Part shown: piece after piece, positions 1 through 33,306 of the stretch
Numbering within the stretch: position 1 is the stretch's first letter
Layout of the letters: every line of letters starts with the position of its first letter
NCBI GenBank assembly: GCA_027484165.1
Contig: JAIXWH010000015.1
Span: 1 to 43,237 of the forward strand
Source of the DNA: Chitinophagaceae bacterium
GTDB taxonomy: Bacteria > Bacteroidota > Bacteroidia > Chitinophagales > Chitinophagaceae
DNA length: 43,237 nucleotides
Direction: 5' to 3'
Position numbers and translations under genes: made by a program
The notes under the pieces: generated by a model
What the model saw: the letters and a program-made list of their open reading frames with translations, nothing else
Told to the model about the DNA's origin: nothing
Databases searched by the model: none

Positions 1-305
1 AAAAAGCGATGATGGCAAACAAAAATCAAAACCCAAACCCTAAGAAAAACCAAAATCCTATCATTATCTGAAAAGATAATGGTGAAAAACCAAAAAAATC
101 CAATATCCGGACTTATGCTAAAAAGCAAAGATAGTCCACGAAAACCAACAGCGTTATCCAAACCTGTTCAAAAACAACCGGGTTATTAATTAACCACTCA
201 AACCAGGAAACTTTTACTAAAATACAGTAAAATCCAACCCTGAAAAACCAAATTGAGTAAATCGGTTAAAAGATTTACTCCTACTTTTTAGTAGGAGTTT
301 TTTTA
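1..305 (+). ncRNA. candidate structured RNA, 5' end off or near window edge
   Basis: This stretch has no convincing gene but is packed with local hairpins joined by A/C-rich linkers that share the motif GAAAAACCAAA (near 43, 83 and 242). Helices seen directly are: 62-69/74-81 (8 bp, GAAA loop); 109-113/133-137 enclosing 116-119/124-127 (AAAA loop); 181-185/191-195; 212-218/226-232 (7 bp) with an extra GGA/TCC pairing at 206-208/233-235; 255-263/272-280 (9 bp); and the terminator 277-285/290-298. The last two helices share bases 277-280, so their outer pairs compete. The T-tract gives plus-strand direction. RNase P RNA, tmRNA and SRP RNA signatures were looked for and not seen. The 5' boundary is unknown and the ncRNA call is inference; two tiny ORFs lie inside (12-71, 79-189). 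Confidence 0.35.
277..305 (+). terminator. intrinsic terminator
   Basis: A perfect 9-bp stem (277-285 with 290-298, TTTT loop) is followed by a run of about eight T. It ends the left-edge transcript about 270 bp before the next gene, which has its own promoter, so it is not an attenuator of that gene. Confidence 0.8.
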
Positions 306-575: not shown

Positions 576-1349
576 ATGTTTTTAGAAAATCCAAATAAAT
601 TAGGTCTTATCCCAAAAAAAATCATATCTCTTGTCCCCTCTCAAACAGAGCTACTTTATGATTTAGATTTAGAAGAAGAAACTATCGGCATAACCAAATT
701 CTGTTATCATCCAAAAGAATGGTACCGCAGCAAAGAAAGAATTGGTGGAACTAAAACAATCAACATAAAAAAAATAATTTCGCTACAACCTGATTTAATC
801 ATAGCAAACAAAGAAGAAAACATCAAAGAACAAATTGAAGAACTTGCGAAATCATTTCCAGTTTGGCTTACAGATGTAAATAGTTTAGAAGATGCATTAA
901 AAATGATTAATGATATTGGCATATTAACAAACAGGAAAACAAAAGCAAAAGAAATTGTATCTCAAATAAAAAAATCACTTCCAGATCAATCTAAATCTCA
1001 AAAAGTAAAAAAGAAAGTCATCTATCTCATCTGGAGAAATCCATATATGGGTGTTGGGAATGAAACATTCATCAATGACATGATTTCAAGAGCAGGCTTC
1101 GACAATATGTTGAAAAACAAAAAAAGATACCCTACAATTAATCTGGAAGAATTTGCGAAAAAGAAATGTGATTTTATTTTTCTCTCGAGTGAGCCCTATC
1201 CTTTCAAAGAAAAACACATGTTGGATATCAACAAATTACTCCCCGATGCTAAAGTTATTTTAGTAGATGGCGAATACTTCAGTTGGTACGGAAGCAGATT
1301 ACTAAAATCAGCTGTTTATTTTGAAAAATTGAGAGAAGAATCAAACTAA
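576..1349 (+). CDS. BtuF-like helical-backbone metal receptor protein, no signal peptide
   Basis: A 257-residue protein of the periplasmic-binding-protein fold with a helical backbone (PF01497, BtuF/FhuD-like). Family features are the N-terminal 'KKIISLVPSQTELLYDL' strand-helix, then 'RIGGTKTINIKKIISLQPDLII' in two parts (about residues 56-77), and a C-terminal lobe with 'GVGNETFINDMISRAG'. Classical members bind cobalamin or ferric siderophores for an ABC importer. This one begins directly with the fold: it has no signal peptide or lipobox, and an in-frame stop abuts the start, so no leader can be missing. It is therefore predicted cytoplasmic and its ligand is unknown. No transporter genes are adjacent; the aldolase 57 nt downstream has its own promoter. 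Family confidence is good, function is open. Confidence 0.8.
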   Translation: MFLENPNKLGLIPKKIISLVPSQTELLYDLDLEEETIGITKFCYHPKEWYRSKERIGGTKTINIKKIISLQPDLIIANKEENIKEQIEELAKSFPVWLTDVNSLEDALKMINDIGILTNRKTKAKEIVSQIKKSLPDQSKSQKVKKKVIYLIWRNPYMGVGNETFINDMISRAGFDNMLKNKKRYPTINLEEFAKKKCDFIFLSSEPYPFKEKHMLDINKLLPDAKVILVDGEYFSWYGSRLLKSAVYFEKLREESN

Positions 1350-22248: not shown

Positions 22249-22323
22249 TGGGAGCTACAGGAGTCGAACCTGTGACCCTCTGCTTGTAAGGCAGATGCTC
22301 TAAACCAACTGAGCTAAGCTCCC
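22249..22323 (-). tRNA. tRNA-Val (anticodon UAC)
   Basis: A 75-nt cloverleaf on the minus strand: acceptor GGGAGCT/AGCTCCC with discriminator A; D arm GCTC/GAGC; anticodon stem TCTGC/GCAGA with 7-nt loop CTTACAA, giving anticodon TAC; T arm ACAGG/CCTGT with loop TTCGACT. The 3' CCA is not encoded. It has its own promoter (TATATTTG at 22344-22351) and terminator, so it is a single-gene unit. It lies just upstream of clpS and valS on the other strand. Confidence 0.97.
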
Positions 22324-33168: not shown

Positions 33169-33272
33169 AAAAAAAAATGGCAAGTTACTTACATCGCACC
33201 GCTCAACCATCTACCCTTGCTATCTTCCGATCCTGGGGGAATTCAACAGGAGCTGGTCGTATAAGACTTGCC
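33169..33272 (-). ncRNA. ffs: signal recognition particle RNA (small bacterial SRP RNA)
   Basis: A ~94-nt RNA on the minus strand (mature part 33179-33272). Its ends pair perfectly, GGCAAGT with ACTTGCC. The conserved SRP domain IV is plain: 'CCAGGATCGGAAGATAGCAAGG' in two parts, with the GGAA tetraloop and the asymmetric loop side 'AGCAAGG', the Ffh-binding surface. The 3' flank 'GGTGCGATGTAAGTAACTTGCC' matches the bacterial pattern. A run of nine T (33169-33177 on the plus strand as A) provides termination. It scaffolds Ffh/FtsY for co-translational targeting. It lies between the transaldolase and T9SS plug genes on the same strand. Confidence 0.93.
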
Positions 33273-33276
33273 GTTG

Positions 33277-33306
33277 CAAATATAGGGGTTTTGTTTAAAG
33301 GTTCAA
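33277..33306 (-). promoter_or_regulatory. promoter of SRP RNA
   Basis: TTG (33304-33306 on the minus strand), a 19-nt spacer, and TATATTTG (33277-33284) lie 4 nt before the GGCAAGT 5' end, placing +1 at the mature end. The -33 element sits inside the low-complexity repeat copy B. Confidence 0.75.

Follow-up and report, generated by a model that had tools for sequence, protein, structure and literature searches.

A probable family of non-coding RNA genes in Chitinophagaceae, with repeated hairpin modules in Ferruginibacter

Few bacterial RNAs that are large, structured and widely conserved fall outside the known families, and wherever the function of such an RNA is known, it has proved to belong to the basic machinery or to be a global regulator. 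Little is known of post-transcriptional regulation in environmental Bacteroidota. Among the described systems closest to the locus reported here, CsrB/CsrC and RsmX/Y/Z are independent, terminator-ended RNAs, present as paralogous copies, in which a short hairpin motif is repeated between single-stranded linkers. The RNAs of type III toxin-antitoxin systems (ToxI, CptI and TenpI) are arrays of tandem structured repeats followed by a terminator and then a gene, with the known antitoxin RNAs being pseudoknot repeats. FopS, a multicopy sRNA of Bacteroidota acting with RbpB, is about 65–70 nt long and consists of a single-stranded 5' seed and one terminator (PMC11697453). The promoter consensus of Bacteroidota is TAnnTTTG at -7 with TTTG or TTG at about -33 (PMC7366714).

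The window, i.e. the whole stretch of 43,237 nt that was analyzed, is an entire contig (C131) of a genome assembly that has 158 contigs and a size of 2.5 Mb. A preliminary description had proposed a new structured RNA at its left edge and called for the sequence to be extended upstream. We found that the first bases of the window form the 3' half of a hairpin, of which the 5' half is carried by a second contig of this genome, C107; the left edge of the window is thus an assembly break and not a natural boundary, an exact identity of 119 bases between the two contigs being what an interrupted assembly path would leave. Upstream, C107 carries the end of a cystathionine beta-synthase (CBS) gene, the CBS terminator, and then about 300 more bases of similar sequence. 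Since the order CBS - RNA - PF01497 is unbroken in relatives, the join was trusted, and the joined feature is an RNA gene of about 490 nt between the CBS gene and a gene for a PF01497 protein, with window positions 1–305 making up its last three fifths. The predicted start lies about 190 nt upstream of window position 1, and the terminator about 270 bp before the PF01497 gene. The features are as follows (window coordinates unless a contig or locus is named):

L005:543-1898, CBS gene, flanking the RNA upstream
C107:357-339 (= L005:357-339), promoter palindrome over the -33 element
C107:318-311, promoter -7 box
C107:306, predicted RNA start, placed from the promoter
C107:212-198, 3' strand of the P1 stem
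1–119 (+), contig overlap, identical to 119 bases at the start of C107, where the RNA gene continues upstream
1–16 (+), 3' half of the canonical module hairpin GCC-UAUGCCUUAAAAAGCGAUGAU-GGC, complete at C107:130-104 (minus strand)
17–57 (+), single-stranded A/C-rich linker, with GAAAAACCAAA at 44–54
58–84 (+), perfect stem-loop CUAUCAUUAUCU-gaaa-AGAUAAUGGUG, from folding (z -6.4)
84–108 (+), linker GAAAAACCAAA...AUCCAAUAUCC
109–137 (+), degenerate module hairpin GGAC-UUAUGCUAAAAAGCAAAGAUA-GUCC
147–168 (+), stem-loop, from folding
180–195 (+), stem-loop GGGUUA-UUAAU-UAACC, from folding
203–242 (+), 3' domain with outer CAGG/CCUG and inner UUUUACU/AGUAAAA pairings, an arrangement common to many relatives
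255–280 (+), stem overlapping the terminator by 4 nt, without conservation in the family
277–305 (+), intrinsic terminator (hairpin 277–298, 9 bp, then a U-run) and transcript end
576–1349 (+), conserved neighbour gene outside the RNA, with the PF01497 periplasmic-binding-protein fold

All the stems of the preliminary description, which had counted at least six, were recovered (58–84, 109–137, 147–168, 180–195, 203–242, 255–280 and 277–298), and its repeated A/C-rich linker sequence proved to be GAAAAACCAAA, found three times, at window positions 44, 84 and 242. The first 310 nt of the window fold at -61.4 kcal/mol, compared with -37.1 kcal/mol for dinucleotide shuffles (z -5.8; 0/100), and the joined 491-nt transcript gives a z of -5.2. 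Downstream of the terminator, two short segments (319–360 and 496–532) each recur once elsewhere in the genome with 84–86% identity.

With Rfam 15 at the gathering threshold, no family matched the locus, and a permissive search of loci from Ferruginibacter and other genera gave only sub-threshold chance matches (E up to 1). The tRNA/tmRNA scan of the upstream contig found none, and the longest open reading frames average no more than in shuffled sequence (39.2 versus 38.9 aa); positions 1–305 contain no long ORF, as had been observed before, and no coding frame enters them from upstream. In the openly accessible literature, which does not include a large 2017 survey of RNA motifs, we found no paper that ties an RNA of this kind to Ferruginibacter or Chitinophaga. 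Comparison of the copies shows a gene with i) its own promoter, ii) the P1 stem, iii) repeated modules, iv) conserved linkers, v) a terminator, and vi) multiple copies. We are highly confident that the locus is a real gene for a non-coding RNA and that its family is uncatalogued. The proposal of a new structured RNA is thus well supported, with a promoter, a terminator, covarying stems and homologues in dozens of genera. Both conditions that the preliminary description had named as refuting, a coding frame continuing from upstream and homologues whose stems do not covary, were checked, and neither applied.

The promoter is of the Bacteroidota type, with CAnnTTTG at this locus lying 20 nt below a TTG. 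The -7 box reads CAnnTTTG in 98 of 105 Ferruginibacter copies and TAnnTTTG in one, and TAnnTTTG in 45 of the 47 copies of a second locus set, mostly from other genera. TTG and the box stand 20 nt apart in 87/87 Ferruginibacter copies and 32/36 others, and the AGAAG of the RNA begins 4 nt past the box in 143/144 copies, so that the family carries sigma-ABfr-type promoters of independent sRNAs. Given this fixed spacing, the predicted transcript start is the base with which P1 opens, the A of AGAAGUUGAUUG. In a profile of positions -75 to +50 from 28 copies, an 18-base promoter/5' core is almost invariant, the near-invariant elements being, in order, GTAATTAC, the palindrome AAAGAGCAA-N3-TGCTCTTG over -33, CATCTTTG at -7, and AGAAGUUGAUUGAU. 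The palindrome, AGAGCAA-N3-TGCTCT, overlaps the -33 element in nearly all copies (alignment A1, columns 36–53), and CGTA..TACG repeats are present further upstream. Both look like regulator binding sites, for which they are candidates only.

The 5' domain, of about 100–130 nt, is closed by the 15-bp stem P1 (AGAAGUUGAUUGAUA with UAUCAGUCAACUUCU), which is nearly palindromic and is paired in 95.9% of cells over 41 diverse sequences; it covaries only slightly because its sequence hardly varies. A local AUCAAUC is an alternative partner for the upper part of its 5' strand (95.3% of cells paired), so that the 5' domain holds a conserved pair of mutually exclusive predicted helices. As a U-run follows P1, a short form of the RNA, of about 115 nt, could end there, which is a guess. 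The long P1 stem and the strong independent promoter are also features expected of a 6S-like RNA binding RNA polymerase, and the family, like 6S and 6S-Flavo (RF01685), appears to be an abundant, independently promoted structured RNA of Bacteroidota. However, the loci scanned gave no match to the 6S or 6S-Flavo covariance models, the fold differs, and the interior of P1 is A/C-rich, unlike a promoter-like bubble; a 6S-like function is thus very unlikely. A separate search of 13 genomes found no 6S-Flavo, but since it matched no control genome either, it is uninformative on absence.

Downstream of P1, the Ferruginibacter copies carry a hairpin module, NNN-UAUGC-YNURAAAA-GCGAUGAU-N'N'N', in which the core is almost invariant and the outer stem variable. 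The 105 distinct copies contain 204 modules, with 0 to 7 per complete copy, and the loop YNURAAAA is present in most of 180 distinct modules. In the outer stem, 86.1% of cells are paired, compared with 69.6% in shuffles. Covariation, which the preliminary description had named as a check on homologues, is evident in this stem: 94 cells are double-changed versus 39.7 in shuffles, with a score of 0.429 versus 0.174 that none of 500 shuffles reached, although these counts are inflated by modules from recent duplication; against such inflation, five pair positions show between three and five pair types each. Sliding the partner strand abolishes the signal. Since energy folding by itself sometimes misses the module, its internal loop is suspected to have a non-canonical or protein-bound form. 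A kink-turn or sarcin-ricin identity of the UAU/GAUGAU internal loop was rejected by inspection, the sequence being a misfit, and a mini-ORF (AUG-CNN-UAA) in the module was rejected because its stop is lost in the UUA/UCA and long-loop variants.

That the copies are dispersed as well as tandem, lie often at contig ends, and have inverted repeats as units would agree with repetitive DNA (REP/BIME-like or a small mobile element) without RNA function. Repeats of that kind have neither strand preference nor promoter, however, whereas all 174 modules scored for strand lie on the transcribed strand and none on the opposite one, the promoter spacing is fixed, a terminator is present, the linkers and internal loop are conserved like the stems, and the locus is syntenic across genera. 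It is therefore very improbable that these are mere repeats.

The linkers are rich in A and C and poor in G, and carry CCAAUAUCC, AUCCAA and GAAAAACC; the RNA body as a whole is 41% A, 21% C and 14% G. The linker 7-mers CAATATC, CCAATAT and AATATCC occur in the family 20–40 times over Markov expectation, with CAATATC counted 260 times against 5 expected. W-C-C steps peak at a spacing of 7 nt, the control being flat. Such a composition and periodicity would suit a decoy for Rho, that is, C-rich, G-poor unstructured RNA with spaced pyrimidine-C steps occupying the protein. This reading is improbable, however, because Rho would require nothing like the conservation found in the module core and P1, the 7-nt spacing is shorter than the 9–13 nt usual for rut sites, and the transcript would itself be Rho-terminated.

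A terminator, as called by rules, is present at the 3' end of most copies. The preliminary description had also pointed to a switch-like overlap here. The two stems concerned, 255–280 and 277–298, do share positions 277–280, but the overlap is not conserved: a stem of at least 7 bp overlapping the terminator is found in 14% of copies and 8% of shuffled controls, under an overlap criterion loosened so as to include the case of the window, and a terminator switch was rejected as a family feature. In one subtype (loci L031, L072, L100 and L126), the terminator hairpin CUUCCACAGACUAUGAAAAACUAGUAGCUUGUGGAAG has a loop resembling the UAUG/UAG internal loop of the module. At eight loci (L175, L176, L179, L183, L184, L185, L187 and L209), the array ends before PF01497 in a strong hairpin, CCTCCTGCTAAA/TTTAGCAGGAGG, that no U-run follows; this hairpin, found in several other genera, may represent a different type of 3' end or a leader element.

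In Ferruginibacter, to which the named matches belong, the 105 distinct copies are often tandem; some loci hold 2–4 complete tandem copies, each with its own promoter and terminator. Genomes with the RNA carry 1 to 10 copies, complete copies have a median length of 461 nt, and the RNAs are 260–830 nt long. A profile of the promoter and 5' end (R1) matched 62 of 70 genomes of this genus and 108 of the 294 genomes, in 38 of 101 genera, of Chitinophagaceae, where genera are those of GTDB and the family name rests on the named Ferruginibacter matches. No match to R1 was obtained in any other family among 395 genomes spread over the phylum; four marginal matches outside the family (E 0.001–0.01), from the search that gave the count for the genus, were taken as chance. 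R2, a covariance model built on the 5' domain and leaving out the promoter, matched 97/294 genomes and 35/101 genera of Chitinophagaceae and nothing outside the family in phylum-wide samples; since R1 and R2 share about 45 nt of the RNA 5' end, they are only partly independent. The genomes searched are mostly metagenome-assembled, with some copies cut at contig ends. Among the samples searched, the predicted family is restricted to Chitinophagaceae. The module is narrower in range, being found in 1 of 36 genera by an order-wide pattern search; inspection of the sequences revealed that copies of other genera combine the 5' domain with A/C-rich linkers of the AUCC/GUCC type and different hairpins. 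It was not found in viral contigs, and lone matches in Vibrio, Paenibacillus and others were isolated and taken as chance.

The CBS and PF01497 genes flank the RNA in many genera of Chitinophagaceae, although their proteins have diverged to about 50–75% identity. This constancy, together with the copies of several other genera that end beside PF01497 in a hairpin lacking a U-run, would fit a cis element, i.e. a long leader or 3' UTR controlling the PF01497 gene. However, many copies stand beside unrelated genes, with neither CBS nor PF01497 at 27 of the 80 loci in Ferruginibacter (contig ends shorten several of these 27 or hide their neighbours), the Ferruginibacter copies terminate 270 bp before the gene, and 2–4 complete copies can follow one another. 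A transcript shared with a constant downstream gene, which characterizes riboswitches and cis-leaders, was not found, the copies without a U-run in several genera being less clear. Many copies adjoin different genes and carry a terminator of their own, which supports the view of the preliminary description that the RNA is not a simple leader. The cis reading is unlikely. An RNA antitoxin of a type III system is exceedingly unlikely. A structured repeat array (with a 56-nt period in locus L039), a terminator and then a gene do recall such systems, but the next gene is PF01497, which has no toxin-family match, and no toxin of the ToxN/CptN/TenpN kind follows the terminator; dispersed copies have other neighbours or stand alone, the repeat number varies from 0 to 7, and the units are covarying hairpin modules rather than pseudoknots.

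The near-invariant core within a variable stem, together with the repeated invariant linkers, reads as a set of repeated protein-binding sites. We tentatively propose, by analogy with CsrB/RsmZ, a multivalent RNA that would titrate an RNA-binding protein: the RNA would be made in quantity, and its numerous, nearly identical sites, namely the UAUGC/GCGAUGAU hairpin and, in the single-stranded linkers, CCAAUAUCC and GAAAAACC, would bind and sequester a sequence-specific protein. How many sites there are would depend on the tandem modules and the tandem genes, and a transcription factor would control the output of RNA through the palindrome at -33. Hairpin repeats in an independent RNA are shared with CsrB/RsmZ, and protein binding is predicted from that likeness. 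The family differs, however, in having YNURAAAA rather than GGA in the module loop, and in that no CsrA gene was found in 11 genomes (this one and 10 relatives), with the control detected in 3. As some copies have linkers only (L018 and L042) and no module was seen in those of other genera, the module would not be the sole binding site. Hfq was not found in this genome, and two RRM-domain proteins, the leading candidates for the partner, are encoded at C107:46771-46980 and C98:63138-63347. That module and gene copy number together tune a global RNA-binding protein, as a CsrB-like layer without Csr and Hfq, is conceivable but doubtful.

Paralogous mRNA-pairing RNAs could give the same pattern of conservation. 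In this alternative, the seeds for mRNA pairing would lie in the linkers or in P1 (its invariant AGAAGUUGAUUGAU strand), as in a multicopy base-pairing sRNA such as FopS or GibS, which act with RbpB in Bacteroides thetaiotaomicron. Multicopy paralogous sRNAs with sigma-ABfr promoters do exist in Bacteroidota (PMC11697453), this genome likewise encodes RRM proteins, and the nearly invariant 5' strand, which pairs locally or distally, could therefore be exposed. However, a small test with rough start-codon calls in 416 genes gave no enrichment, near these codons, of sequences complementary to linker or P1 7-mers, the RNAs are 260–830 nt long with a P1 domain and module arrays, lacking the size and seed of FopS, and much of the conserved sequence sits in a repeated hairpin. 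Base pairing as the main function thus appears rather unlikely, and titration of a protein is the reading that we prefer.

Whatever its mode of action, the kept gene position, the multiplication within genomes, and the near-invariant promoter and 5' domain suggest that the RNA is likely to be important to the cell. Its newness lies in fitting no catalogued RNA family, as its mode of action would be of a known kind if it is a sponge for a protein partner. Environmental Bacteroidota seem to lack Hfq and CsrA, and the family gives access to their post-transcriptional regulation; it is directly testable since cultured hosts exist, e.g. Ferruginibacter paludis CECT 8366. The window also carries a small SRP RNA of the Bacteroidales type at 33174–33280 (-) and a tRNA gene at 22249–22323 (-).
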